Source: a virus
Virus record (IMG/VR): IMGVR_UViG_3300031886_000039
Coordinates: 1-24,567 of that record
Strand: one strand, 5' to 3'
Length of the DNA: 24,567 nucleotides
The notes beneath the pieces were generated by a model that made no database searches, had not been told where the DNA came from, and worked only from the letters and a program-made list of their open reading frames with translations. This document shows, piece after piece, positions 4,325 to 22,336 of this stretch. The stretch's first letter is position 1; every line of letters starts with the position of its first letter. The translations under genes and the position numbers were made by a program.

Positions 4325-4917
4325 TGAAGCAACTTTTAGTAGATACAATCCCTTTTAACTTTTCTAGAAGTGATATTAATGAATCATCAGCCAAAAATGG
4401 TGGAAGATTAATTGTTAATGGTGTTTTGCAAAGAGCAGAAGCAAAAAATCAAAATGGTAGAATATACCCTAAAGAAATTTTAATGAGAGAAGCTAATAAA
4501 TATACGTCTGAATTTATCAAAGAACGTAGAGCAATGGGCGAGTTAGATCATCCCGACAGCTCTGTTGTTAATTTACAAAATGTTTCGCACAATATTTTAG
4601 AGATGCATTGGAAAAATAATGATTTAGTAGGTACTGTTGAAGTACTTAGCACACCAGCAGGCAATATTTTAAGAGAATTATTTAAATCAGGTATTAAATT
4701 AGGTATAAGCTCTAGAGGCTTAGGGTCAATTAAGCAGGAAGGAAATGAAGACGAGGTCCAAAACGATTTTGAATTAATCGCATTTGATTTTGTCTCTAAT
4801 CCTTCAACACATGGCGCATTTCTGCAGCCAGTTCATGAATCAAAAGGATCGTCAACTACCACTAATAAATGGGCAAATGTTGAGTCTGATATAAGAAACA
4901 TTTTAATAGGAAAATAA
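4324..4917 (+). CDS. 21: Prohead core protease gp21
   Basis: This is a T4 gp21-type serine protease with the herpesvirus-assemblin-like fold. It sits inside the prohead and cleaves scaffold and capsid proteins, usually after Glu in (L/I)-X-E sites, before DNA packaging. Its 197 residues are close to T4 gp21 (212). The catalytic His lies in MGELDHPDSS (His76) and the Ser in the conserved GISSRGLGS (Ser129/130), preceded by the family's NQNGRIYP segment near residue 43. The C-terminal FELIAFDFVSNPSTHGA, around residue 148, is also typical. Its ATG overlaps the preceding stop as TAATG. One base separates it from the next gene. Confidence 0.94.
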   Translation: MKQLLVDTIPFNFSRSDINESSAKNGGRLIVNGVLQRAEAKNQNGRIYPKEILMREANKYTSEFIKERRAMGELDHPDSSVVNLQNVSHNILEMHWKNNDLVGTVEVLSTPAGNILRELFKSGIKLGISSRGLGSIKQEGNEDEVQNDFELIAFDFVSNPSTHGAFLQPVHESKGSSTTTNKWANVESDIRNILIGK

Positions 4918-4918
4918 G

Positions 4919-5443
4919 ATGGCAAAGAGCACAAAATTAAAAGATATATTAAACGAAAGTATCGGTATCGGGGGCATAGTTCCTATGGAAGCAATAGGGG
5001 ATATGAAAGGCTCTCAAGGTACAAAATTATTGCAAATGGCTAAAGATCTTGTAGCTAAAGAAGATGCTAATAAGCTTATGAACAGGGAAGATCTTATTAA
5101 AACTGTAGCAGAATTCCAGACTTATGGTCCGTCAATTTATAAAAAACATAATTTAGCAGAAGTTGGTCATATTTTTAAAGAAATAGCAGAGGCATCACAA
5201 AAACATGTTGTAGAAGAAGCTTCTGAATGGTTTGATAGAGTGACTGTACAAAGAAATATGAATGATCTTAAAAAACAGGCGGGATCATTTTCTAAAATTG
5301 CAACTGAAGCTCAAGCATTACAAGATAGAATGGCTGCCTTATATGAAGATATGGGTACAATTCTAAATCGTTACTTTGCAATAAATGATGCGGAAGAAAG
5401 TAAATCATATAGGCAACATGACGACAAAAAAGAAGAGGAATAA
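4919..5443 (+). CDS. Uncharacterised helical protein between gp21 and bS21 (174 aa)
   Basis: No known domain is recognised. The sequence is predicted almost entirely alpha-helical and ends in a charged tail (RQHDDKKEEE). The N-terminus contains a Gly/Ile/Met-rich stretch (SIGIGGIVPMEAIGDMKG) that is not hydrophobic enough for a signal peptide. It contains several (L/I)-X-E tripeptides (for example IKEI and LAEV), the type of site cut by gp21, compatible with being an internal core protein. The start has AGGA about 8 bases upstream and is one base after the protease stop. The stop codon directly abuts the ATG of the bS21 gene. A scaffold or internal head role is plausible from position; nothing in the sequence proves it. 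Confidence 0.8.
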   Translation: MAKSTKLKDILNESIGIGGIVPMEAIGDMKGSQGTKLLQMAKDLVAKEDANKLMNREDLIKTVAEFQTYGPSIYKKHNLAEVGHIFKEIAEASQKHVVEEASEWFDRVTVQRNMNDLKKQAGSFSKIATEAQALQDRMAALYEDMGTILNRYFAINDAEESKSYRQHDDKKEEE

Positions 5444-5641
5444 ATGGCAATACAAATCAAGGTTATAGATAACAAAATAGAATGGGCGTTACGTAAATTT
5501 AAACGTAAAGTTAAAGATGCAGGAATACTGCATGAGTTACAACAAAGACAATTTTATCTAAAACCTTCAGCAATAAAACGAGATAGGAATGCTAAGGCAA
5601 GACGTCGTGCTCAAATTCGTTCAAAAAAAGCTGAACTTTAA
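5444..5641 (+). CDS. rpsU: Phage-encoded 30S ribosomal protein bS21
   Basis: This is a 65-residue homologue of bacterial bS21, the small subunit protein that sits beside the anti-Shine-Dalgarno region of 16S rRNA and helps mRNA binding at initiation. The hallmark is clear: ALRKFKRKVKDAGILHE (residues 15-31), then RQFYLKPSAIKR (35-46) and a highly basic C-terminus, matching the bacterial pattern ALRRFKR...AGVL...REFYEKP. Its length is close to E. coli S21 (71). The start has AGAGGA and directly follows the preceding stop. bS21 genes are known from cultured and metagenomic marine phages, where they are proposed to swap into host ribosomes. Placement inside the head operon suggests late expression, perhaps to favour abundant virion mRNAs; that link is inference. 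Confidence 0.93.
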   Translation: MAIQIKVIDNKIEWALRKFKRKVKDAGILHELQQRQFYLKPSAIKRDRNAKARRRAQIRSKKAEL

Positions 5642-5654
5642 AATATATTAGGTA

Positions 5655-5662
5655 TATTTATA
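5655..5662 (+). promoter_or_regulatory. TATTTATA box in the gp22 leader
   Basis: An exact TATTTATA in the 126-base gap between bS21 and gp22, 105 bases before the gp22 ATG and just upstream of three hairpins. A second AT-rich box, TATAAATG at 5668-5675, resembles the T4 late box TATAAATA in the forward direction. Either could drive gp22-gp23 transcription. Confidence 0.4.
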
Positions 5663-5675
5663 AAAAATATAAATG

Positions 5676-5737
5676 CACTCACATTCGTTGAGTGTTTCGA
5701 ATTAATCAACTCTGATTATAGTTCCTTAATAACTATA
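5676..5737 (+). promoter_or_regulatory. Three consecutive hairpins in the gp22 5' leader
   Basis: Three short inverted repeats lie in a row. CACTCA (5676-5681) pairs with TGAGTG (5689-5694) across a 7-base loop. TAATCA (5703-5708) pairs with TGATTA (5713-5718) across 4 bases. TATAGTT (5717-5723) pairs with AACTATA (5731-5737) across 7 bases. The last two stems share two bases, so full forms compete. The gp22 SD (AGAGGAG, from about 5754) lies 16 bases downstream and stays single-stranded in this model. They could stabilise the gp22-gp23 mRNA or control its translation. No U-tract terminator follows. Confidence 0.45.
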
Positions 5738-5767
5738 CAAATGTAAACCTCTAAGAGGAGAATCCAA

Positions 5768-6838
5768 ATGGATAAACTATTACAAGAAGCAATTGCTGAC
5801 GCAAAAGCTGTACGCGAAACTGCGCTAGCAAATGCAAAACTAGCCCTCGAAGAAGCCTTTACACCTCATCTGAAATCAATGCTTTCCAAAAAGCTACAAG
5901 CTGAAATGGAAAACGAGGAAGAGGAAGCCGATGCCGGCGATGAAGCCGGTGATGAAGCTGACCCATTTGCTGCGGATGATTCCGTAGAAGAAGAAATGGA
6001 CAGTTCAGATATTGGTAAAGCTGATAACAAGAAGCCAAGTGACAAATCTAATGATGACGATGGTCAAGGCCCTGAAGAAGAAGGTTCACCTTCTGCTCAA
6101 GGCGATGAAGATGATGAAGCTGAAGAGGCGCCTGATCAAGCTGTAGGTGAAAACTCTAACCCTTTCAGTGAAGAAGACGGAGAAGAAGAAGCTCCTGTCC
6201 CTGATATGGAAGACGAAGAAGAAGAAGAACCTGAAGCAATGGCTGGCGATGACGTAGATCTTGAAGAAGTACTACGTGAACTCGAAGCTGAAATGGCAAT
6301 GGAAGAAGAAGGTGAAGAAGAGGAAGAAGCTCCCGAAGCTCCTGCCCCTGAAGAACCTGCTGATGAAGAGCCCGCTGAAGAAGAACTTGATCTTGAAGCA
6401 ATTATCAAAGCATTATCTGAAGAAGGTGATGAAGAAGAAGAAGAAGAGGAAGCTCCTATGGCTGAACCTGAAGAATCCGTACACGCTGAACTCGCAGAGT
6501 ATAAGCAAACAGTACAGTATTTGAAGGAAAAGTTGTCAGAAGTAAATCTTCTTAACGCAAAACTTCTTTATACGAATAAGCTATTTAGAAGCAGAAATGT
6601 TTCACAAGAACAGAAAATGAAAGTTATTGAACAATTTGACAGAGCTGCTAACGTACGCGAAGTTAAACTTGTTTATACTACATTTGCTGAATCTATGAAA
6701 CGTAAACCTGTTAATGAATCAGCTCGTACAAAGAGTCAAGCTTCAAAACCTGTAGCTTCTACCAAAGGTAGACAAACTATCATCGGTGAACATGTGGATT
6801 TTAAAACCCGCATGAAGAAATTAGCTAACATTATTTAA
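5768..6838 (+). CDS. 22: Prohead core scaffolding protein gp22
   Basis: This is the main scaffold of the prohead core, which shapes capsid assembly and is then degraded by gp21. The N-terminal helix (MDKLLQEAIADAKAVRETAL) is followed by an extreme Glu/Asp-rich stretch, about residues 50-240, with tracts of consecutive acidic residues. The recognisable gp22 core comes next: LKEKLSEVNLLNAKLLYTNK, then LFRSRNVSQEQKMKV, near residues 253-290. A basic tail (GEHVDFKTRMKKLANII) ends the protein. It is longer than T4 gp22 (269) because of the acidic insert. The (L/I)-X-E sites needed for gp21 digestion are numerous. The SD AGAGGAG is strong. The GAA-rich DNA creates long spurious frames on both strands. 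The gp23 gene follows after 12 bases. Confidence 0.9.
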   Translation: MDKLLQEAIADAKAVRETALANAKLALEEAFTPHLKSMLSKKLQAEMENEEEEADAGDEAGDEADPFAADDSVEEEMDSSDIGKADNKKPSDKSNDDDGQGPEEEGSPSAQGDEDDEAEEAPDQAVGENSNPFSEEDGEEEAPVPDMEDEEEEEPEAMAGDDVDLEEVLRELEAEMAMEEEGEEEEEAPEAPAPEEPADEEPAEEELDLEAIIKALSEEGDEEEEEEEAPMAEPEESVHAELAEYKQTVQYLKEKLSEVNLLNAKLLYTNKLFRSRNVSQEQKMKVIEQFDRAANVREVKLVYTTFAESMKRKPVNESARTKSQASKPVASTKGRQTIIGEHVDFKTRMKKLANII

Positions 6839-8589: not shown

Positions 8590-9741
8590 ATGGCTGTACC
8601 AATATGGCAAGGAAGTAGTTCATTTTCAGCAGGTAACACTCCTTATGGGTTTTATGATACTGATAGTGACTATGCAACATCAATAGATAAGTTCGCAGAC
8701 TGGTCTGCAAGAAGGCTAGGCTACCCTATTGTCGACATTGAAATGCAATCTGGATCTTTTTACGCCTGTTTTGAAGAAGCAGTTACTGAATATAGCGCTC
8801 AAGTTAATCAGTTTAATATAAGAGATAATCTACTGCACTTACAAGGACAATCAACAGGCTCAAATTTATCTGGTAAAAAAGTAACGCCAACACTTGGCAG
8901 GACTATATTCTTAAGCCAACAATACGGAACTGAAGCAGGAGCCGGAGGTTTTGTTGACTGGAAAAAAGGAAGTATTAGTGCAATATCCGGTACACAAGAA
9001 TATGATCTTAATGCTTTATATGGCGCTGCATCTGAATCAGGTGCTGCTATGGAAATTAAGAAAGTTTACCATGATAGCACACCAGCAGTAAACAAATATT
9101 ATGATCCTTACGCAACCACAGGATTTAATACTGCAAATTTTCTTCAATCATTTGGCTTCGGTGATTATTCACCTGGTGTATCTTTTACTCTAATGCCAGT
9201 ATTTGAAGATTTATTGAGAATACAATCTATAGAATTTAATGACATGGTAAGAAAATCTCAATATTCATTTACACTAGTTAATAACAAATTAAGACTATTT
9301 CCTAAGCCAACCACAAATCACAAATTATATTTTGACTATATACTAACGTCTGAAAGAAGTAATACACTAGTAACAGGAAGCGGTGAGCAACCAAATGTAA
9401 TTTCAGACTATTCTAATGCACCCTATGATAATATGGAGTATCAATTTATCAATGATGTAGGTAAACAGTGGATTAGAAAATATGGATTAGTGTTATGTAA
9501 AGAGCTTTTAGGTAATATTAGAAGTAAGTTTGGGTCAATACCCATACCTGGTTCTGAATTTACAATGGATGGCGAGACACTCAGATCAGAGGCAGCGTCA
9601 GATAAAGAAATACTCATCTCAGAATTAAGAGAAACACTAGAACAAACTAGCAGACGTGTACTAATGGAAACAGATAGTGAAGAAAGTATGCGACTACAAG
9701 AAAAACTTAACAAAGTACCACTTAATATTTATGTAGGATAA
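8590..9741 (+). CDS. 13: gp13-like neck (head completion) protein
   Basis: This is probably the T4 gp13-type neck protein, which joins gp14 under the portal to close the filled head. The key segment is FADWSARRLGYPIVDIEM (residues 35-52), followed by an amphipathic helix (FEEAVTEYSAQVNQF), which parallels the gp13 pattern of an N-terminal aromatic, R-x-LG-x-P-V-V and an EA-rich helix. A middle beta-rich part includes GTQEYDLNAL, and the C-terminal helical part (SEEIL-type helix, SRRVLMETDSEESMRLQEKL) is hydrophilic. At 383 residues it is longer than T4 gp13 (309). The SD is TTGGAG. Four bases separate it from the next gene, consistent with a 13-14-15 operon. The assignment rests on the N-terminal motif plus order; a more general connector label is the alternative. 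Confidence 0.75.
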   Translation: MAVPIWQGSSSFSAGNTPYGFYDTDSDYATSIDKFADWSARRLGYPIVDIEMQSGSFYACFEEAVTEYSAQVNQFNIRDNLLHLQGQSTGSNLSGKKVTPTLGRTIFLSQQYGTEAGAGGFVDWKKGSISAISGTQEYDLNALYGAASESGAAMEIKKVYHDSTPAVNKYYDPYATTGFNTANFLQSFGFGDYSPGVSFTLMPVFEDLLRIQSIEFNDMVRKSQYSFTLVNNKLRLFPKPTTNHKLYFDYILTSERSNTLVTGSGEQPNVISDYSNAPYDNMEYQFINDVGKQWIRKYGLVLCKELLGNIRSKFGSIPIPGSEFTMDGETLRSEAASDKEILISELRETLEQTSRRVLMETDSEESMRLQEKLNKVPLNIYVG

Positions 9742-9745
9742 ACCA

Positions 9746-10231
9746 ATGGCCGGAAGATTTATCAGATCAAGAGATTTAAATTTCTTTGATACAATTAATA
9801 AAGAGCTTTTAGGGGACCCTGTAAATAATAAAACAGGCGTTATAAATCAAGAAGTCGTAATTTATAAAGTCTCTGTTTATGAAACAGAAACCAATTTTTA
9901 TGGTGAAGCATCTCAAGGAAGATCATATCAAAACGGTGTTAAATTAGCATGTCTTATAGAAGCAGAAGATTTTGATTTTGAAACATCAGAGTTTGGACCA
10001 GATTCAAATCAAAATGCAACATTTTCATTTCTTAGACAATCATTAATAGATTCCGGAGATTTTGTTCCTGACTTAGGGGATGTAATAGACTGGAACTATA
10101 CTTATTGGGAAATAAATTCTATTAATGAGAACCAATTAGTAGGTGGGCAAGCCAATCAAAATCATTCTGTTGTTGTGACAGCATTCTTATCAGAGCAATC
10201 TAGAGTTAATATTCAAAGAATAAGGGGTTAA
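9746..10231 (+). CDS. 14: gp14-like neck / head-tail connector protein
   Basis: This is a 161-residue beta-rich protein lying between gp13-like and gp15-like genes, the place of T4 gene 14. It contains VVIYKVSVYETETNFYGEAS near residue 38, then LACLIEAEDFDFETSEFGPD, and a C-terminal beta core with PDLGDVIDWNYTYWEINSI. The arrangement suits a neck subunit that binds gp13 and the tail terminator. It is shorter than T4 gp14 (256), so the identification depends largely on position and on a remembered resemblance to marine phage gp14 proteins. The start has AGGAT about 7 bases upstream, and the stop is two bases before the first gp15-like ATG. No signal peptide or membrane helix is present. Confidence 0.65.
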   Translation: MAGRFIRSRDLNFFDTINKELLGDPVNNKTGVINQEVVIYKVSVYETETNFYGEASQGRSYQNGVKLACLIEAEDFDFETSEFGPDSNQNATFSFLRQSLIDSGDFVPDLGDVIDWNYTYWEINSINENQLVGGQANQNHSVVVTAFLSEQSRVNIQRIRG

Positions 10232-10233
10232 TT

Positions 10234-11016
10234 ATGGCTAAGATTATCCCTGCAAATATACAATCAGATGCAGATAAAAGAAATAGAGGGGAGGACGTCT
10301 CTAGATTAAAAGATAAAACTTCAAACTTTTCAATCGGTCTTTTAGAAATCGATTCTGCATTATTTTATTATTTTAAAAATGTTATAAAGCCCATGATTAA
10401 GGAGGCAGGTGAACAAGTTGAGGTTCCTGTAATATATGCAAATTCTGAAAGATGGAAGTCAATCAAGAAAGATGGATGGATTAGAGACATAAAAAGAAAA
10501 ATTATCACACCTGCAATAGCATTTAGAAGAACTAGTTTTGCTAAGGATGCTAGCATGCCTGTTGATAAGCTAGACCCTTCAAACCCAAAGCTTCATCAAA
10601 CATTTGAGTCTCGTTACACAAATGAAAATCGCTATGATAATTTTTCTGCTACAAGAGGAATAATACCAAAGAAAGAATTACATAGTATTGCTGTCCCTGA
10701 TTATATAACGCTAAGTTATGATTTTACTGTATGGACAGCATTTACTGATCAACAAAATTCCATAGTTGAAAAAATCAACTGGTCAGAAGGATCGTATTGG
10801 GGAGAACCCGGAAAATTTAGATTCATGGCAACAATAGATAGTTTTGAAGATGCAAGTGAATATGATGAAACACAGAGAAATATAAAGACAAATTTCTCAG
10901 TGACACTAAAAGGCTATTTAGTACCTGCACACTTTGATAAAATTGTTACAACACAAAAATCACTCACAAAAAAGACAATCATAGTTGGTGATGTCGTAAC
11001 AAATCAATCATTATAA
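10234..11016 (+). CDS. 15: Tail terminator / sheath stabiliser gp15, first copy
   Basis: This is a T4 gp15-type protein, the ring capping the contractile tail and attaching it to the neck. Its 260 residues match T4 gp15 (272). Diagnostic features are VPVIYANSERW (residues 64-74), a following RKIITPAIAFRRTSF segment, the DYITLSYDFTVWTAFTDQQN core (around 163-182) and the closing NIKTNFSVTLKGYLVP. The equivalent T4 stretches are VPITYASKEHF, the Y-x-L-x-I-F-T-R-Y strand and the E-W-S-L-T-F-E-V-N-G-W-M-Y-P end. SD AAGGGG is good. Its stop overlaps the next ATG (TAATG). The next gene encodes a clear paralogue, about 60% identical by eye and ungapped over 230 residues. Which copy is the real cap cannot be decided here; this one has the normal length. 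Confidence 0.88.
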   Translation: MAKIIPANIQSDADKRNRGEDVSRLKDKTSNFSIGLLEIDSALFYYFKNVIKPMIKEAGEQVEVPVIYANSERWKSIKKDGWIRDIKRKIITPAIAFRRTSFAKDASMPVDKLDPSNPKLHQTFESRYTNENRYDNFSATRGIIPKKELHSIAVPDYITLSYDFTVWTAFTDQQNSIVEKINWSEGSYWGEPGKFRFMATIDSFEDASEYDETQRNIKTNFSVTLKGYLVPAHFDKIVTTQKSLTKKTIIVGDVVTNQSL

Positions 11017-12302
11017 TGCCAAAATTAGTACCAGCAAACAGACAGACAGCAGCTGATAAAATAAACAGAGGCAGAGAAATATCAAGAATTGGTGATAAGA
11101 TTCGTGGCTTATCTGTTGGTTTACTAGATATAGATTCTGCCCTTCATTGGTATTTTAATAATATAATAAAGCCGGATATTAAAGAGGCAGGTGAGCAAGT
11201 TAAGGTACCAATAATGTATGCAAATCCTGAGAAGTGGTATGCAATACAGCGTCAAGGATTTGTAAGGGATAAAAAAAGAAAAATTATTTGTCCTGTTATA
11301 GTTTTTAGAAGAACATCTATGACAAAAGATACAACAGTCCCAGTTGACAAACTAGATCCTACAAATCCAAAATTACATCATATTTTTCAATCTAATTATA
11401 GCAAGGTAAACCGTTATGATAAATTTTCTGCAACAAAGGGAACAATACCAAAAAAAGAAATGTACTCTGTTGCTGTGCCTGACTATGTTGTTTTAAGTTA
11501 TGACTTTACAATATGGACAAGTTTTACAGATCAAATGAATGGTATTATTGAAAAAATTAATTGGTCAGAGGGGTCATATTGGGGTGAGACAGGTAAGTTT
11601 AGATTTAGGGCAACAATAGATAGCTTTGATGATGCTAGTGAGTTTGAAGAAAATAGAAGGAATATAAAGACAAATTTTTCTGTAACATTAAATGGATATT
11701 TGCTACCTGATTCATATCCACCAACAGCAGACACAACACAACAATTCATTACACCAACACAGATGGTGATGAATGAGAATGTAGATTCTACAATAGTAAC
11801 ACCTGATCCAGGAATTGTAGGCACAGGGACAACAACTATTATGGGAGGCGGAGGCGGATCATCAGAAAGTTCTGGAGGTGGTACTGGAACTGGTAGTATG
11901 GAAGTTTTAACATTACAACCTGGAAATAATTTAGTTTTTAACAACATATATTATGATGGCACAACATCAGTCACCGAAACAATAGGGATATCAGACAATC
12001 CCGTATTTACATCATTATCAGCATCATATATCTCTGCTTCAAATATAAATTTATCAGGTGATTTAGAGGTTGCAGGTAGTATTACAGCTAAAGAATTTTA
12101 TACACAATATATTACCTCGTCTGTTATTTTTCAAAGTGGATCAACACAATTTGGTGACTCAGCTGATGATACTCACCAATTTACGGGTAGCATTTTATTA
12201 GATGGTGCTATAACAGCTGCTACAACTGGCTCATTTGGTTATATAGAAGTTGCAGGACAGTCAGTTGTATCAAATGTTGTAATCGATGGTGGTTCTTTTT
12301 AG
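11016..12302 (+). CDS. Second gp15 copy fused to a fibre-type C-terminal domain
   Basis: Residues 1 to about 236 are a complete gp15-like tail-terminator domain (VPIMYANPEKW, DYVVLSYDFTIWTSFTDQMN, NIKTNFSVTLNGYLLP), collinear with the preceding gene. A Thr/Pro-rich linker and a Gly/Ser run (GGGGGSSESSGGGTGTG, from about residue 276) follow. The last 130 residues are fibre-like beta repeats: DNPVFTSLSASYISASNINL, LEVAGSITAKEFYTQYI, and [16 protein letters not shown], a module shared with four downstream adhesin genes. No obvious SD precedes the ATG, which overlaps the upstream stop, so translation is probably coupled. The natural reading is a collar or tail-top subunit that displays an adhesin or whisker-like appendage. 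The alternative is that it binds adhesins through the shared module. The structure is seen; the role is inferred. Confidence 0.88.
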   Translation: MPKLVPANRQTAADKINRGREISRIGDKIRGLSVGLLDIDSALHWYFNNIIKPDIKEAGEQVKVPIMYANPEKWYAIQRQGFVRDKKRKIICPVIVFRRTSMTKDTTVPVDKLDPTNPKLHHIFQSNYSKVNRYDKFSATKGTIPKKEMYSVAVPDYVVLSYDFTIWTSFTDQMNGIIEKINWSEGSYWGETGKFRFRATIDSFDDASEFEENRRNIKTNFSVTLNGYLLPDSYPPTADTTQQFITPTQMVMNENVDSTIVTPDPGIVGTGTTTIMGGGGGSSESSGGGTGTGSMEVLTLQPGNNLVFNNIYYDGTTSVTETIGISDNPVFTSLSASYISASNINLSGDLEVAGSITAKEFYTQYITSSVIFQSGSTQFGDSADDTHQFTGSILLDGAITAATTGSFGYIEVAGQSVVSNVVIDGGSF

Positions 12303-12392: not shown

Positions 12393-12845
12393 ATGGCACA
12401 GACTGTTAAGCTTAAGAGGTCTGCAATCGCGGACAAAGTTCCAGATACAGGTTCTATGTCTCTAGGAGAATTAGCTGTTAATACAAAAGATGGCAAATTA
12501 TATTTCCTTAAAGAAGATGGAACAAAAACTGTAGAATCAATTCTTACAACATCAGCACCGATTACCGGATCACTACAAATAGACACATTGACTGTGAATA
12601 CTGATTTTAACTATGGTAGTACTGTATGGAACGAGAATAGTGGAATAAATGAGTTAACAGGTTCTAGCTTTTTATTTAAGTCTGGCACACCGCCAGAATT
12701 AGAAATATATAATGGTTCCGATGAATTGGTATTTAAAGTAGACAGCAAGGTTGTTGTATTTAGCCCATTGAATGTTACACCAAACGCTGTTGCAGGCGGA
12801 ATGTTTTACTCCGGAAGCAATGAGTGGTATTTAGGGCATGAATAA
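12393..12845 (+). CDS. Short fibre-type virion protein with tail-fibre N-terminal domain (150 aa)
   Basis: The N-terminal 45 residues follow a pattern common in phage tail fibre and tropism proteins: VKLKRSAIADKVPDTGSMSL, then GELAVNTKDGKLYFLKEDGT. It is a small beta domain, often used at the base of fibres. The rest is beta-rich: SGTPPELEIYNGSDELVFKV, and ends with GGMFYSGSNEWYLGHE. There is no enzymatic motif or signal peptide. At 150 residues it is much shorter than a full fibre, so it may be an attachment or tip subunit. The SD TAGGAG is strong and the leader holds two palindromes. It is the first gene of the adhesin cluster. Confident as a virion-associated structural protein, less so for the exact role. 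Confidence 0.7.
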   Translation: MAQTVKLKRSAIADKVPDTGSMSLGELAVNTKDGKLYFLKEDGTKTVESILTTSAPITGSLQIDTLTVNTDFNYGSTVWNENSGINELTGSSFLFKSGTPPELEIYNGSDELVFKVDSKVVVFSPLNVTPNAVAGGMFYSGSNEWYLGHE

Positions 12846-12957: not shown

Positions 12958-14754
12958 ATGGCAAATTGGAAAAAGGTAATCGTAAGTGGTTCAGCACCGG
13001 AACTAGCTAGCGTAGTACTTGACACAGACTTAGCAGTTTTACATGGAGGTACTGGAGCATCATCTCAGGCGGGCGCCAGAACAAATTTAGGATTAGTAAT
13101 CGGAACAAATGTGCAAGCATACGACGCTGATTTAACTGATATAGCTGCTTTAGCTAAAACTAATGGTAATTTTATTGTTGGTGATGGTAGTAATTTTGTA
13201 GCTGAAAGTGGTGATACAGCAGCAACATCATTAGGATTAGGTGCAGCAAGTGCAGCTTCATTTGGTACAGTAACAACTACAGGAAATATTGTCAGTACAG
13301 GTGGTGTTGGTACAAAGATCTCAGGATCAATCAACTCAACTGGTTCATTTGGATTACTTCAAGGTGATGGTTCAGGAATAACAAATTTAACATCTGCAGC
13401 AATTTCTACTTATACAAACGGTGGAACGTCAGATAGAATACTAACTTCCAACGGTTCATCAGCAGTAAATGCAGAAGCTACCTTAACTCATGACGGAAGC
13501 ACATTTACAGTAACTGGTGCTCAATCAATTTCCGGAAATCTTCTCAGTACAGGCGGTGTTGGTACAAAGATCTCAGGATCAATCCACTCAACTGGTTCAT
13601 TTGGTAGAGTAGAAGCAACAAAATTTGTTGGTGATGGCTCAGGATTAACAGGTGTAGCGCAAGATATTGATGCATTAGATCCATACGGAGCAGCAACATT
13701 ACATCAGACACAAGATAAATTCCAGGTATCTGATAATGGAACTGAAAAATCTATCACATTTAGTAATTTAGAAGATAGTATATTTGCAAATGTAACTGGT
13801 GGGGATGTACATATAGCAGCAGGTGGAGTAGCAACAATTCAGGGAACATCAGTAGAAACAAGTATGATAGCAAATGATGCTATTGATGGCACAAAATTAG
13901 CTGATGATGCTGTTAATAGTGAACATATTACAAATGCGTCAATAGACACTGCCCATATTGGTAATGATCAAATAACTAATGCTTTGATGGCTGATGATGC
14001 TATTGATTCTGCTCAATTAGCAGCTGCCTCAGTAGATTTAGCACATATGAGTGTTAATTCTATTGATAGTGATCAATACGTAGACCTCTCAATAGACACA
14101 ATACATATACGCGATTTACAAGTAACAACAGATAAACTAGCTGCAGACGCAATAACAAGTGCTAAAATAGCTGATGATCAAGTTGATACTGAACATCTTG
14201 CTAATGATGCTATAGAGACAGCAGCTATAGCCAATTTACAAGTAACAAAAGAAAAAGTAGCTAATAGCACTTTAACAGGAAATCAATTTCATGCTGATGT
14301 AGCAGGTTCAGGTATCGCTTTAAGTGGTGCAGCTTTGTCAGTTAATTTTTCTGAACTGGTCGCTGCAACACCTACTTTTCAAGACTTAACAATTACTGGT
14401 GACTTAACTGTTAGCGGTACTACAACAACGCTGGATACACAGAATCTTCTTGTTGAAGATAACTTTATTTTTGCAGGAACAGGATCTGCAGGTAATAGTT
14501 GGGATGGTGGTTTAATTGTCCAGAGTGGATCAGCTGATAAGTCAGGATCTGCTATTTATAGCGACTCATCAGAACATAGATGGGCAGTAGCAAAAGGTGT
14601 GCAAGCATCAGGATCAAACACAGTTGTTCCAGAAGCATTCGTAGGAACAGTAAACATAGATCAAGCCACTAACCCGAATTCTACTTCTGGTTCTTATGGC
14701 GAAGGTGAAATGTACATCACAGCAGCAGATGATATTTGGATTAGAGTCGGTTAA
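12958..14754 (+). CDS. Tail fibre / adhesin with 14 decapeptide repeats (598 aa)
   Basis: A modular fibre. The N-terminus MANWKKVIVSGS is shared with the 15089 protein and probably anchors it to the virion. Next comes the common fibre segment LAVLHGGTGASSQAGARTNL. Two copies of STGGVGTKISGSI.STGSFG follow, about 112 and 196 residues in, each leading to a GDGSG(I/L)T loop. From base 13873 to 14292 are 14 tandem decapeptides of form (N/D)-D-x-(I/V)-D-x-x-x-(L/I)-A, hydrophobic every fifth residue, giving a rod-like stalk. The C-terminal part has LTITGDLTVSGTTTTLDTQN, then LVEDNFIFAGTGSAGNSWDG, and ends GEGEMYITAADDIWIRVG, a common pattern in marine phage fibres. SD AGAGGAG is strong. Likely a trimeric receptor-binding or side fibre; the receptor is unknown. 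Confidence 0.85.
   Translation: MANWKKVIVSGSAPELASVVLDTDLAVLHGGTGASSQAGARTNLGLVIGTNVQAYDADLTDIAALAKTNGNFIVGDGSNFVAESGDTAATSLGLGAASAASFGTVTTTGNIVSTGGVGTKISGSINSTGSFGLLQGDGSGITNLTSAAISTYTNGGTSDRILTSNGSSAVNAEATLTHDGSTFTVTGAQSISGNLLSTGGVGTKISGSIHSTGSFGRVEATKFVGDGSGLTGVAQDIDALDPYGAATLHQTQDKFQVSDNGTEKSITFSNLEDSIFANVTGGDVHIAAGGVATIQGTSVETSMIANDAIDGTKLADDAVNSEHITNASIDTAHIGNDQITNALMADDAIDSAQLAAASVDLAHMSVNSIDSDQYVDLSIDTIHIRDLQVTTDKLAADAITSAKIADDQVDTEHLANDAIETAAIANLQVTKEKVANSTLTGNQFHADVAGSGIALSGAALSVNFSELVAATPTFQDLTITGDLTVSGTTTTLDTQNLLVEDNFIFAGTGSAGNSWDGGLIVQSGSADKSGSAIYSDSSEHRWAVAKGVQASGSNTVVPEAFVGTVNIDQATNPNSTSGSYGEGEMYITAADDIWIRVG
13292..13604 (+). repeat. 61-bp imperfect direct repeat inside the 12958 fibre gene
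   Basis: Copies at 13292-13352 and 13544-13604 differ at only two bases and are 252 bases (84 codons) apart, so the repeat keeps the frame. Each encodes STGGVGTKISGSI.STGSFG. Near-identity at the DNA level, including silent positions, points to recent duplication or gene conversion, and it could mediate in-frame deletion or expansion. Confidence 0.85.
13873..14292 (+). repeat. 14 tandem 30-bp units encoding decapeptides
   Basis: Fourteen consecutive in-frame 30-base units, from NDAIDGTKLA and DDAVNSEHIT to NLQVTKEKVA and NSTLTGNQFH. Positions 4 and 9 are nearly always hydrophobic, and residues 1-2 are often Asn/Asp or Ala/Asp. The DNA has diverged more than the protein pattern, so this is an old array held by structure. 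Confidence 0.85.
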
Positions 14755-15088: not shown

Positions 15089-15607
15089 ATGCCAAGTTGG
15101 AAAAAAGTTATAACATCAGGCAGCAGTGCAATGCTGTCATCTTTATATACGTCAGGCGACGTATCTGGTTCCGCATCTTCTGTAGGGTCTTTTGGACAAG
15201 TAAAAGCGGGAACATTAAGTGTTACAGGTAATATCACTACACAGGGTGACATAATAGCAGAAAATTATATAGTATCATCATCAGTAACACATTTAACACA
15301 ATCATATAGTTCAGGTTCTACAGTATTCGGTAATACTTCTGATGATACACATCAATTTACAGGCTCCTTAAGTATGACAGGGGACGTAATACCTTCAACA
15401 GACGCAACAGTAGACTTAGGATCAGATACAAAAAGATTTGCTAATCTATATACTGCAGATATTCAGTTATCCAATGAACAAAAAGGCCCAAATGATATTG
15501 ATGGAACAACTGGTAAGTGGACAATCCAAGAGGGCGAAAATGATCTATTTTTAATTAATAGACGTACTGGTGCCAAATTTAAATTTATAATAGAACAAGT
15601 AGAATAA
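15089..15607 (+). CDS. Short modular fibre protein (172 aa)
   Basis: A compact adhesin built from modules used elsewhere in the cluster. The N-terminus MPSWKKVITSGS parallels the 12958 protein and is a probable virion anchor. SASSVGSFGQVKAGTLSVTG is next, followed by the roughly 37-residue shared module ([37 protein letters not shown]). The C-terminal domain has DLGSDTKRFANLYTADIQLS, TIQEGENDLFLINRRTG and ends FKFIIEQVE. This last domain recurs at the end of the 19850 protein, so it is a true domain, perhaps a fibre tip or trimerisation unit. The SD is AAGGAG. It looks like the minimal form of the larger fibres: anchor, one repeat module, tip. Confidence 0.8.
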   Translation: MPSWKKVITSGSSAMLSSLYTSGDVSGSASSVGSFGQVKAGTLSVTGNITTQGDIIAENYIVSSSVTHLTQSYSSGSTVFGNTSDDTHQFTGSLSMTGDVIPSTDATVDLGSDTKRFANLYTADIQLSNEQKGPNDIDGTTGKWTIQEGENDLFLINRRTGAKFKFIIEQVE

Positions 15608-16008: not shown

Positions 16009-18675
16009 ATGCCAAAGCAACATAATGCGCTGTATGGTGATGATCTACATAATCCGAAAGGAATAACTGTAGATAGCCATGCATCCTCATCAAAATTTGT
16101 AATAAGCGCGTCTAATATGACAATTACAGCGTCAGGTTTTACAGTTAAAGCAACAGCTTTTCAAGGTGATGGAAGTGGATTAACAGGTGTGCCTGCTAAT
16201 GATTGGGATGGTACACATTCTGGAAACGGTGTCATTACTGGAAATCTTGAAGTTCAAGGTAACTCAAGTGGTTCTATTACTTCAACAGGATCATGGGGCA
16301 AAGTAGAAGCAACAAAATTTTCAGGTGATGGTTCAGGTATAACAGGAGTTACTGATGCAGCCGCTTTACCAAAAGCGGGTGGCGCAATGACGGGAGCTAT
16401 CACTACTAACTCTACATTTGACGGAGTAGACATAGCTACAAGAGATGCAATTCTAACAAGCACAACAACTACTGCAGGTGCAGCTTTACCAAAAGCAGGT
16501 GGTACTATGACAGGTGCGTTAATAGGAACGACTGCAACTTTTACTGGTGACATAACTGCTCAAAATTATATCGTAAGTTCAAGTGTAACTTATATGACAA
16601 CATCATTTAGTAGTGGATCAACTATATTCGGTGATACAGCAGATGACACACATAAATTTATAGGTAGCATTACAGCATCTGGTGTCGTATCTGCGTCTGG
16701 TGGATTTGTTGGAGATGGAAGTAATTTAACTGGTATTTCGACTGGTGTTTTTTCAGATGGAACTGCAACTCTTATAAGCGGATCATCAGTATCAACTGGT
16801 TCATTTGCAAAAATACATATAGCTGATGCTGAGTTTTTAAGTATGGATCACGCAGCAGTACGTGGGGATGATGATATAGAGTTTATTGGTTGGACGACGA
16901 CAGGATCTGCTGCTGGTATGATTTCTGGTCTTCAGGAAGATGATCTTATCCTTTATGCTTACGCCGGTTCATCATCAGTACCCTCAGCTACTCAGTTTGC
17001 TTCTGAAGGCTATACTAGTTTAGGAGCTACAAACATTTATGATTATTACTATGGACATGTTTGGTATAAAAAAATGGGAGCAACACCTGATGCTTCTGTT
17101 CCCAACAATCCTTTCGTTTGGGGAGATTTTTTAGCGACAGCATGGCGAAATGTACACCCAGATGATCTTTGGGATGCAAGTGTGCAGAAATACGGTGGTA
17201 GTAATAATAGACCAAATACACCTAGTATAACGACAGTTACAGCTAAAGCAGTAGTGGTATCAATTGGAATGAGCTCAGCCAGGTCGTTTACAGCAGGGCC
17301 AAGTGGCTATACTGGTTTTGTTAGTAGTTCAGCTAGTGGTCATACCTACCCAGGTAATATTGGTGTAGCTTATAAAGAAATAGCAACAGGAGCATCAGAA
17401 GATCCAGGTGAATTTAATGCTGAGGTGGGCAACCATCTTGGTTACACAATAGCATTAAAGAAATATCCTGCAGGCACATACACTACTAATTACGGATTTT
17501 CTGATATATGGAATCAGCATCATAAAGGTACGTATGCAAAAATAAGCGGCTCATCAGCTTCAAGTTTTTCTGGCGGAACTGCAACATTTAACACCTTTGT
17601 AGGCGATGGTTCAGGTTTGACTAATTTGGATTTATCATCAGTAAATGTATTTGATTATACTTCAGGAAGTAGCCCAGTAGTAACCACAAATCCAAGCAGC
17701 GTAGGTTCGACTTGGATAAATACAACGTCTGGAGAAATATTTGTTGCTACTGATATAACTTCAAATGAAAATGTATGGCAAGGCACTGCTGGTAATACAG
17801 TAGAGCCTCCTCCTTCTTTTCTTGGATCAAGAGGTATATGGGCTGGTGGTTATAGATCCTCTGGGGCTACAAACTACATTGATTATGTAACTATAGCATC
17901 TACAGGAAATGCAACTACTTTTGGAAACTTGACTCTTAGTAGACACTCTGGGCGTGCTAGCTCCAATGGAGTAAGAGGTGTCATTGGTGGTGGAAACGAT
18001 GGTTCTTCCTATACCAACGTCATTGATTATATAACCATAGCCACAACAGGTAATGCAATCGATTTTGGAGACTTGACTGAAACTAGAGGGTTAACAGGTG
18101 CTTGCTCCGATGGGACAAAAGGTTTATGGGGTGGCGGTGTTGGTGGTGGCAACGTCATTGATTATGTAACCATAGCAACTACAGGAAATGCAACTGATTT
18201 TGGAGACTTGACTGTTAGTAGATATGATCTGGGATCCTGCTCCGATGGGACAAAAGGTTTATGGGGTGGTGGTGCTAGCACTACCAACGTCATTGATTAT
18301 GTAACCATAGCAACTACAGGAAATGCAGTTGATTTTGGAGACTTGACTGTTGCTAGATATGGATCATCAGCTTGCTCCGATGGAACAAAAGGATTATGGG
18401 GTGGTGGACAATATAGCACCGCAGGCGCCAACGTCATTGATTATGTAACCATAGCAACTACAGGAAATGCAACTGATTTTGGAGACTTACTTGTCGGCAA
18501 CGAATCACCAGGAGCTTGCTCCGATGGAACAAAAGGAGTATGGGGCGGTGGATACGTCAGCGGGCAAAGATCCAATGTCATACAGTATGTAACTATAGCA
18601 TCTACAGGAAATGCAGTTGATTTTGGAGACTTGACTACCGGTAGAAGCACTCCAGGTTCTTGCTCAGGTACTTAA
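16009..18675 (+). CDS. Large adhesin with C-terminal six-repeat propeller (888 aa)
   Basis: A multi-domain fibre-like protein. Residues 1-270 hold fibre modules: three or more GDGS(G/N)(I/L)TG loops, GGAMTGAI and GGTMTGAL segments (common in phage fibres), and the shared module (NYIVSSSVTYMTTSFSSG, STIFGDTADDTHKF). Residues about 271-505 form a compact domain: DDLILYAYAGSSSVP, KKMGATPDASVP, NTPSITTVTAKAVVVSIGM and AYKEIATGASEDPGEF. This resembles a beta-sandwich domain I recall from many metagenomic phage structural proteins. Residues about 606-888 are six repeats of 45-48 residues (NVIDYVTIATTGNATDFGDL, then CSDGTKGLWGGG), probably a beta-propeller. The last repeat ends CSGT and the first begins GSRGIWAGG, so ring closure by the two ends is likely. 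SD is AGGAG. Probable receptor-binding protein; the ligand is unknown. Confidence 0.85.
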   Translation: MPKQHNALYGDDLHNPKGITVDSHASSSKFVISASNMTITASGFTVKATAFQGDGSGLTGVPANDWDGTHSGNGVITGNLEVQGNSSGSITSTGSWGKVEATKFSGDGSGITGVTDAAALPKAGGAMTGAITTNSTFDGVDIATRDAILTSTTTTAGAALPKAGGTMTGALIGTTATFTGDITAQNYIVSSSVTYMTTSFSSGSTIFGDTADDTHKFIGSITASGVVSASGGFVGDGSNLTGISTGVFSDGTATLISGSSVSTGSFAKIHIADAEFLSMDHAAVRGDDDIEFIGWTTTGSAAGMISGLQEDDLILYAYAGSSSVPSATQFASEGYTSLGATNIYDYYYGHVWYKKMGATPDASVPNNPFVWGDFLATAWRNVHPDDLWDASVQKYGGSNNRPNTPSITTVTAKAVVVSIGMSSARSFTAGPSGYTGFVSSSASGHTYPGNIGVAYKEIATGASEDPGEFNAEVGNHLGYTIALKKYPAGTYTTNYGFSDIWNQHHKGTYAKISGSSASSFSGGTATFNTFVGDGSGLTNLDLSSVNVFDYTSGSSPVVTTNPSSVGSTWINTTSGEIFVATDITSNENVWQGTAGNTVEPPPSFLGSRGIWAGGYRSSGATNYIDYVTIASTGNATTFGNLTLSRHSGRASSNGVRGVIGGGNDGSSYTNVIDYITIATTGNAIDFGDLTETRGLTGACSDGTKGLWGGGVGGGNVIDYVTIATTGNATDFGDLTVSRYDLGSCSDGTKGLWGGGASTTNVIDYVTIATTGNAVDFGDLTVARYGSSACSDGTKGLWGGGQYSTAGANVIDYVTIATTGNATDFGDLLVGNESPGACSDGTKGVWGGGYVSGQRSNVIQYVTIASTGNAVDFGDLTTGRSTPGSCSGT
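17824..18672 (+). repeat. Six in-frame propeller repeats (135 or 144 bp)
   Basis: The conserved block (AACGTCATTGATTATGTAAC and on) begins at 17872, 18016, 18151, 18286, 18430 and 18574, spacings 144, 135, 135, 144 and 144, all whole codons. Copies 3 to 5 are almost identical in DNA across the block encoding NVIDYVTIATTGNA.DFGDL, while the stretches between blocks vary in sequence and length. That implies homogenised framework strands with diverging loops. Confidence 0.9.
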
Positions 18676-19849: not shown

Positions 19850-22336
19850 ATGCCAATTTTTACCTCACATGTCTCTGCTAGTTCAGCGGTTACAGCTTCG
19901 CAATATAAGGTAGATACTTCACTATTACCAGACGCAAATGATGGTGCATCAATAGGAGCAGCAGGAACTGCTTTTAGCGATGTATTTTTAGCAGAGGGTG
20001 GAGTAATAAATTGGGACAGCGGTGACGCAACATTAACTCAAGCAGGAAATGTTGTAACTCTAGCTGGTGCTACTTTTGCTGGCACACTTTCAACAGCAGC
20101 TCAACCAAATATAACTTCAGTTGGAACACTTGGTAGTATTAGTGTTGACGATCAGGCCGGCAAATCTATTTCTATAGATGGTGCTGGTGGTGGAGCAATA
20201 AATGGTTTAACAATAGGCGGCGGAACTGCAGCAGCTGGTGCATTTACAACTTTATCTTCAACTGGTAACACTGTATTAGGAAGTGATTCTAATGACACAA
20301 TAACGTTGAATGGTATTGATACTGGTACAGACAATACTGTTCTTGTTGTGAATGGCTCAGGTGTTGTTTTAACAGATGAAATTGATTCAAGAGTATGGGG
20401 AACAACTTTATTAGATGGTACAAATGGAACTAATAATGAAATAGCAATATTTACAGACTCTAATTCAGTAGAGGGTGATTCAAAAGTAACTTGGGATGGT
20501 GCAACATTTGCAATTGATGGTGATTTACGAGCAATAAATTATATTGTAAGCTCTTCTATCACACATATGACTCAAAGTTTTTCAAGTGGATCAACTGTAT
20601 TTGGTGATACAATGGATGATACTCATCAATTCACTGGCTCTTTAGCTGTCACGGGATCAGCTACATTTAGTGAGGCATTAACAAATTTAACATTAGTAAC
20701 ACCGGCTTTAGGAACTCCTTCAGCTTTGGTTTTAACAAATGCAACAGCATTACCTGCAGCTCAAGTAGCTCAAGGTACAATGGCTTCTGGTATGGTTTTG
20801 GTTGCTCCTGCTTTGGGAACACCAGCAAGTGGTGTGATGACAAATGTAACAGGAACTGCAGCTAATTTAACAGTTGGAAATGCAACTAAAATTACATCTA
20901 TAACAAATAGCAATATTGTACAATTAACTGAAACTCAAACATTAACAAATAAAACTTTAACTGCACCAACATTAACAACACCAGCTTTAGGAACACCAGC
21001 AAGTGGCGTATTAACTAATTGTACAGCATTACCCGCAGCTCAAGTAGCTCAAGGAACAATGGCTTCTGGTATGGTTTTGGTTGCACCAGCGTTAGGAACA
21101 CCAGCAAGTGGTGTAGCAACAAATTTGACAGGAACAGCAGCAGGTCTAACTGCAGGAGCTGTATCTACAATAGCAGGATTAGCACCGAATACGGCAACAA
21201 CTCAAGCAACTCAAGGGGCGATTACAAGCTTAGGAACACTAGTCGGTTTAACTACATCAGGAACTACTACATTAGGTAATGGTGTCGGTGCTACCATTAA
21301 TATAGGTTCCCAAGCATCCGGAAATACACAAACCGGTAAGGTATACCCAGAAACTACTTTTTATAGTAATCTTTTAATGGATAATGGAAAGCACGTAAGT
21401 GGCTCATCAACTTCAACTGGTTCGTTTGGATACTTAGAAGGTGACGGAGGCGGAATAACAGGACTTACATCTGCAGCTATTAGTTCAGTTGCTGGAATGA
21501 CTAATAATAATGTTATAACTGCAACAGGTGCAGCAGCAGTTACGGGTGAATCTAATTTAACTTTTGATGGCAGTGTCTTAACAGTAACTGGTACAATAGC
21601 AGGTTCTGCACTTAAAGATGAAGATAATATGGCATCTGATTCTGCTACTCACCTCGCATCACAGCAAAGTATTAAGGCTTATGTTGATTCTCAAGTTACA
21701 GCACAAGATATGGATGTTGCGTCAGACAGTGGTACAATAGATGTAGATTTAGATAGTGAAACTTTAACTGTAGCTGGTGGTACTGGTATGAATACATCAG
21801 CAACTGGCACCACAATAACAATTGCAGGTGAAGATAGTGATGCTACCAATAAGGGTATTGTTATTGTTGAAGGTGGAACTAACGCAACAGTAGATTACTT
21901 AAATGGAACTGCAACGGTAAATGTAGCTGATGCATTTATAAAGAATAATGCTAGCGATACATCTACTGGTACTATAACCGCAGCTGGATTTATTTCGACT
22001 GAAGGAAATATATCTGGTTCATCATCTTCAACTGGATCCTTTGGCTATCTTTATACAGCAGGCGGCGGTATGTCAGCAGGAACAATACTACCATCCGCAG
22101 ATAATGCTTATGATCTTGGATCTGCAACTTACAGGTTTGCTAATCTGTACGTTGGTGACTTAATGATGAGCAATAAGTCCCGAGGCGGGAATGAAGTGGA
22201 CGGGACTTATGGTGATTATACCATTCAAGAGGGTGAAGAAGATCTGTATTTACTAAATCACAGAAATGGAAAGACTTATAGGTTTAAGCTTGAAGAGGTT
22301 GACAGTCGACCCTGGTATAAAAAGATCTTTAGTTAA
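19850..22336 (+). CDS. Large repetitive tail fibre / adhesin (828 aa)
   Basis: A long fibre assembled from modules. The N-terminus [18 protein letters not shown] resembles that of the 22400 protein and is a second anchor type. Then come fibre segments such as [20 protein letters not shown] and [18 protein letters not shown], and the shared module ([35 protein letters not shown]) near residue 230. A block of ALGTP.S....[12 protein letters not shown] repeats (about residues 283-430), with [17 protein letters not shown] between, is a pattern seen in many phage fibres. Two STGSFGYL modules follow. The C-terminus ([40 protein letters not shown]) matches the end of the 15089 protein and adds [13 protein letters not shown] is AAAGGA. 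Likely an elongated side or distal fibre. Confidence 0.85.
20744..21114 (+). repeat. 92-bp direct repeat inside the 19850 fibre gene
   Basis: Copies at 20744-20835 and 21023-21114, offset 279 bases (93 codons), encode [20 protein letters not shown] followed by [11 protein letters not shown]. They differ at only a handful of positions, mostly third codon bases. The pair keeps the reading frame and could recombine to lengthen or shorten the fibre. Confidence 0.8.

Follow-up and report, generated by a model that had tools for sequence, protein, structure and literature searches.

Results

The neck gene block and its two gp15 genes

The window, by which we mean the whole stretch of DNA analysed here, is a virus record of 24,567 bases and probably a fragment. 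Read from left to right it carries terminase, portal and prohead genes (named by their position and the look of their sequences, without a family search), the gene of the major capsid protein, a gp13-type adaptor, a protein in the gp14 position, two gp15 genes designated A and B, and a run of fibre genes:

start 6851: major capsid protein (phrog_138)
8590..9741, + strand: gp13-type head-tail adaptor (phrog_211, 2.5e-12)
9746..10231, + strand: protein in the gp14 position, 161 aa (by position only)
10234..11016, + strand: gp15 A, predicted plain tail terminator, 260 aa, core and C-terminal arm without extension
11016..12302, + strand: gp15 B, predicted tail terminator fused to a fibre module, 428 aa
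11016..11720, + strand: gp15 core of B, about residues 1-235
11721..11790 (approximate), + strand: C-terminal arm of B (DTTQQFITPTQMVMNEN), from an arm alignment over all relatives
11791..11903 (approximate), + strand: flexible Thr/Pro and Gly/Ser linker of B, from sequence and pLDDT < 50
11904..12299, + strand: fibre-type extension of B, with shaft module and C-terminal IDGGSF, from BLAST, motifs and dN/dS
12393..12845, + strand: fibre-type protein, 150 aa (phrog_17885)
15089..15607, + strand: fibre gene with the common shaft module (phrog_892, tail fiber)
16009..18675, + strand: fibre gene with the common shaft module (BLAST, module)
19850..22336, + strand: fibre gene with the common shaft module (BLAST, module)

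The gp15 genes adjoin the gp13 gene (phrog_211) and the gene in the gp14 position, as in the neck block of T4. Profile and family searches gave no match for the gp14-position protein (9746-10231), so that its assignment is by position only. In T4, residues 178-256 of gp14 contact gp15 (PMC12270204), and because the protein found here has only 161 amino acids the gp14-gp15 joint is probably built differently in this virus. Directly upstream of the major capsid gene, where a prohead scaffold would be placed, the window encodes an extremely acidic protein of 356 aa (5768-6838) that has no PHROGs match.

A and B were described in the initial annotation as tandem gp15-like genes that align without gaps over about 230 residues at about 60% identity. 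The gene limits proved exact, and the gap-free alignment has 157 identical residues out of 234 (67%); BLASTP extends it to 256 aa at 63% identity, with a single gap close to the C terminus (E 2e-126). B matches the Pfam family PF16724 above its cut-off of 25 (9.1e-8, 32.0 bits) and A falls below it (7.4e-5, 22.5 bits), the family being matched at E <= 0.01 by 50 of the 83 related cores. When a profile made from nine relatives was compared with the PDB, T4 gp15 was the sole match, a weak one (E 1.5e-4). Furthermore, in the AlphaFold model of B the core is predicted with fair confidence (much of residues 32-230 at a pLDDT of about 75-88). Among solved structures this model is closest to T4 gp15 (4huh, Z 13.7, rmsd 3.0, 147 residues), and the model of A (mean pLDDT 75.9) has the same best match (Z 12.5, rmsd 3.8, 157 residues). 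Almost all of the 50 structure matches listed are tail or sheath terminators. The check proposed for the N-terminal domain of B, structure prediction, thus returned the gp15 fold at the level of the monomer, and these sequence matches and models confirm A and B as T4 gp15-type tail terminators.

The dN/dS values were 0.04-0.16 for A, 0.05-0.14 for the core of B and 0.10-0.32 for the B extension (from residue 237 on). Both copies are under purifying selection, and the extension evolves faster than the core, which hints at receptor binding but is only suggestive in this respect.

Arm, linker and extension of gp15 B

The arm of many relatives reads TTxK-F/Y-x-T-P-K and then continues in a likely strand. 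An arm is common to plain and fused proteins, terminating the former and preceding the extension in the latter. In phage Milano and in R-type pyocins the C-terminal arm of the terminator pairs with, or is buried in, the topmost sheath ring (PMC10491603).

The linker of B consists of a Thr/Pro stretch and then GGGGGSSESSGGGTGTGS; it extends to about residue 296, after which some 132 residues remain. A shaft module of 14 protein letters lies at residue 379 of B and occurs again in the ORFs at 15089, 16009 and 19850, to which the extension is 37, 49 and 56% identical, respectively, by BLAST. This agrees with the earlier description of a Thr/Pro linker, a Gly/Ser run and a domain of about 130 residues carrying a module of the downstream fibres, and by sequence we consider the B extension homologous to tail-fibre proteins. 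Much of it is poorly modelled as a monomer, below pLDDT 60, and comparison of the gp15 extensions with the PDB, Pfam and PHROGs gave no convincing structure or family match. Since the extension is poorly predicted and lacks a sequence match to a solved structure, the proposals of a trimeric fibre and of an adhesin rest on this sharing of sequence. In L017, a locus otherwise close to the window, the extension contains a large insert.

Some features of the fibre-type proteins are worth recording. The C-terminal hexapeptide [IVLY][DN]GG[ST]F ends 39 of 2322 ORFs and is internal in none; the copy in B lies at window 12282-12299. The ORFs that end in it include 13 gp15 B proteins of the window clade and many fibre-like proteins of unlike sequence, in L007, L017, L019-L023, L032, L085, L086, L093 and other loci. 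A looser form of five residues terminates 30 of 1856 non-redundant ORFs (0.13 expected) and lies internally in 4 cases. The hexapeptide may be a docking or assembly tag. By eye, the 12393..12845 protein and the fused gp15 extensions of L059 and L075 have similar C-terminal ends. Fibre-type proteins of the window (12958-14754 and 15089-15607) and of L015 (11357-12499 and 13083-14846) start with M(A/P)xWKK and then SGS, and so do two structural or fibre proteins of Immutovirus, which makes this start a possible common anchor. Finally, a motif of the type GTKGLWGGG...VIDYVTIATTGNATDFGDL is repeated several times in the C-terminal part of the 16009-18675 protein, which may hold a repeat domain of the propeller type.

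The junction between A and B

The stop codon of A and the start codon of B overlap by one base (TAATG). A has a good Shine-Dalgarno sequence (-7.9 kcal/mol), whereas the region upstream of B shows no anti-SD pairing (+0.9 kcal/mol, against -3.7 to -9.1 in the 21 other genes tested). Both the overlap and the missing SD had been noted at the outset and stand, and coupled translation through the TAATG overlap is plausible from the sequence in the window clade. The further claim, that the fusion is made at a set ratio to the plain copy, is weak because the lack of an SD is specific to some lineages: the SD of B is absent in the window clade and L059, weak in L007, L039 and L044, and good in L024, L030, L040 and L046. 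A fixed expression ratio was thus discarded as a general feature of the pairs and is kept as a possibility for the window clade only.

Relatives of the fused gene

Three profile scans and one single-sequence scan of IMG/VR yielded about 240 loci, a redundant set biased toward the queries. In the census, which was not dereplicated, 88 loci had plain gp15 only, 82 had fused gp15 only and 35 had a plain gene followed by a fused one; the paired loci include three that run off the contig, and further loci cut at one end were counted apart. The proposed search for the same gene pair in related phage genomes was therefore successful. The plain gene came first and the fused gene second in 35 of 35 pairs, no other order being seen in the census. 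We had considered this order as a sign of selection and dropped the idea, as a tandem duplication of the core alone gives the plain-first order. A dozen other IMG/VR contigs (L001-L011, L017) carry pairs closely related to that of the window, so that the window pair is neither a chance event nor an assembly artefact.

Searches of whole records found one gp15 in the fused-only records tested and two in the paired ones. One record of 216 kb has a single gp15, which is fused and of 458 aa. Many relatives have no gp15 other than the fused one, which can therefore probably act as a terminator.

In a phage collection the detectable relatives were Immutovirus, Microcystis phage Mel-JY01 and one uncultured record only. 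Flavobacterium phage vB_FspM_immuto (Immutovirus) has a single fused gp15 of about 464 aa, annotated as a hypothetical protein (QQO92131.1). It has a C-terminal tip domain in common with the fused group (5.5e-11), its core is 37-39% identical, and no plain copy was seen. The fused gp15 is a widespread modular arrangement among mostly uncultured T4-like phages, beyond any single phage.

Two other observations were made next to the neck genes of relatives. Just upstream of gp13 in L024 there are two small ORFs (4872-5435 and 5455-6273) that by eye have a free-standing Hint/intein-like look, and just upstream of the neck genes in L016, a 484-kb uncultured phage genome, a TnpB-like transposon protein of 430 aa (by eye) is encoded from 2745.

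Extensions as free-standing genes

The same sequences that extend gp15 in some loci are found as separate genes in others. The extensions of about 900 aa in L022 and L023 have free-standing counterparts in L024, L028, L032 and L038, fibre-like genes for 736-939 aa that lie 1.1-3.7 kb downstream of gp15 and match them at 62-67% identity. An extension of about 270 aa is 36-52% identical, mostly near end-to-end, to the product of the next gene in L030, most of L036-L045, L048 and L052. In L050 and L051, an ORF of 155 aa located 10 bp after a plain gp15 is 39-40% identical to the extension of the fused gp15 of L024. Moreover, a profile of the tip domain matched 113 domains in gp15 proteins and a further 73 in ORFs of other kinds; of these 73, 63 fall in ORFs 0-30 bp after gp15 (counts that include redundant loci). 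All these sequence comparisons indicate that the gp15 extensions are swapped modules.

Order of events

In the tree of cores the A and B clades of the window are sisters with moderate support (92/76), and they sit in a clade of 16 rows (100/99) whose other members, L019-L023, are all fused-only. In a wider tree the plain copies of pairs appear in 7 places, mostly among fused proteins, and at least six of these are forced by supported branches, so that plain copies have six or more origins on the tree. From the position of the sisters within a fused-only clade and the repeated appearance of plain copies, the ancestor of the window's group was most simply fused and A came later; on the tree, then, fusion looks ancestral in this group and the plain copy derived. 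A reading in which B is the novelty, gained on top of a plain gp15, runs opposite to these results, the fused protein being the only gp15 in many relatives and plain A being derived on the tree. For L047, L050 and L051, which have a plain gp15 and a separate 155-aa gene, the placement inside the fused group, on a long branch, suggests fission rather than fusion.

A and B are 60-80% identical in most pairs, and in 12 of 14 pairs the path from their common ancestor is longer to A than to B, although these pairs are not independent. We also examined whether plain copies show reduced identity to fused-only cores, and this was rejected as inconsistent, only the tree path lengths pointing that way.

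Discussion

We consider it fairly likely that B is an 'evolved' tail terminator, that is, a cap that bears a fibre after its arm, with the plain copy probably mixed in and the fibres forming neck appendages. The idea of terminator-mounted fibres, already put forward in the initial annotation, fits everything found here, B being fused to a fibre-type module. With its N-terminal 230 residues B would build the gp15 hexamer and so close the tail below gp14. The arm would pair with the topmost sheath ring, as in Milano and R-type pyocins, which would bring the fibre out on the outer side of the sheath at its top. From there the arm would continue through the flexible linker into the fibre module, which would emerge from the particle at the neck. 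Plain A would have arisen upstream by duplication of the core, keeping fold and arm but having no fibre, and A and B most likely co-assemble in one hexamer. A would then dilute the fibres, which would leave them more room or reconcile a six-fold ring with three-fold fibres. In phages with the fused form only, up to six tethered chains would be present, and free copies of the extension may join tethered chains and complete trimers. At the neck, the fibres would serve to contact the host or to handle the other tail fibres. We infer that B is present in the virion, that the ring is a mixture of A and B, that the fibres are trimeric and that they act in adhesion. A more specific version, in which a mixed hexamer of fixed pattern sets the fibre number and free copies from the next gene form hetero-trimers nucleated by the gp15-tethered chain, is put forward tentatively and is rather doubtful.

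The extension could instead be a whisker-like scaffold and not an adhesin, holding or sensing the long tail fibres or clamping the sheath top, with the fusion itself being real. Neck fibres of T4 interact with the long tail fibres (PMC12270204), the tips of the A-1(L) neck fibres did not bind the host (PMC10966104), and the extension is short in many members. However, other extensions amount to whole fibre-like proteins of 900 aa, their rate of evolution exceeds that of the core, a frequent property of receptor-binding parts, and a lactococcal neck module bound host cells (PMC6669499). We regard the scaffold function as less probable than not, though as a serious contender.

It is unlikely that A and B make separate rings, A taking another cap position (in a stacked ring, or as tube terminator like T4 gp3) while the gp15 ring consists of B only. 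T4 uses both gp3 and gp15, and two copies of conserved fold, with A the longer-branched in 12 of 14 non-independent pairs, would suit such an arrangement; against it, A and B have kept 60-80% identity in most pairs with no sign of a changed arm, and close relatives manage with one gp15. Still less probable is that A alone is the terminator ring and B a fibre that uses an inherited gp15 fold as anchor, elsewhere or at low copy: the good SD of A and the lack of one for B in the window clade would allow B to be made in small amounts, but the fused protein is the only gp15 in 82 loci, including the 216-kb record, the core of B is under strong purifying selection, and B is the copy that passes the Pfam cut-off.

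If B is an evolved terminator, the arrangement would be a way to attach fibres covalently at the neck, used in one lineage for a fibre-like extension of 900 aa and in others for short shafts or tip domains. It also offers a rule for annotating the large 'hypothetical' gp15 proteins of environmental phages, and the plain/fused pair, having arisen repeatedly, would be a natural test of fibre stoichiometry on a six-fold ring. The fused form can be tested in the laboratory, as the isolated genus Immutovirus has a fused gp15.

Compared with T4 gp15 (PF16724; PDB 4huh, 4hud and 9mkb), the proteins described here have the same fold, a weak but specific sequence match and the same spot in the neck block, after gp13 and a gp14-like gene. 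T4, however, has one plain gp15, whereas here the core bears a fibre extension and a plain copy may precede it. The whiskers of T4 fibritin (gpWac) and the collar on gp13 are likewise neck fibres of a T4-like phage, but fibritin is a separate trimeric protein bound to domain III of gp13 (PMC12270204) and the fibre described here is covalently part of the terminator. A search for Fibritin_C (PF07921) in 9 large records gave no match, and the control genomes gave none either. Anabaena phage A-1(L), an aquatic myophage, has neck-anchored fibres (gp82-gp81-gp80 on the gp5 pentadecamer), which are separate proteins on a 15-fold ring, and its terminator gp8 is a separate protein as well (PMC10966104).

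The lactococcal 936 phages, with their NPS, MTP-TpeX and evolved Dit, follow a common principle: structural proteins bear extra binding modules. Their neck passage structure was modelled with six trimeric fibres, and host cells were bound by one module of the neck and one of the tail (PMC6669499). These are siphophages whose modules are borne by NPS, the major tail protein and Dit instead of the tail terminator, and a plain/fused terminator pair was not encountered in the part covered. In the literature covered, mostly outside the subscription journals, we found no terminator-fibre fusion, second gp15 copy or plain/fused gp15 pair in T4-like phages. The neck fibres of T4 and A-1(L) are separate proteins docked on neck rings, whereas in the phages described here the conserved terminator itself appears to be the modular fibre carrier.
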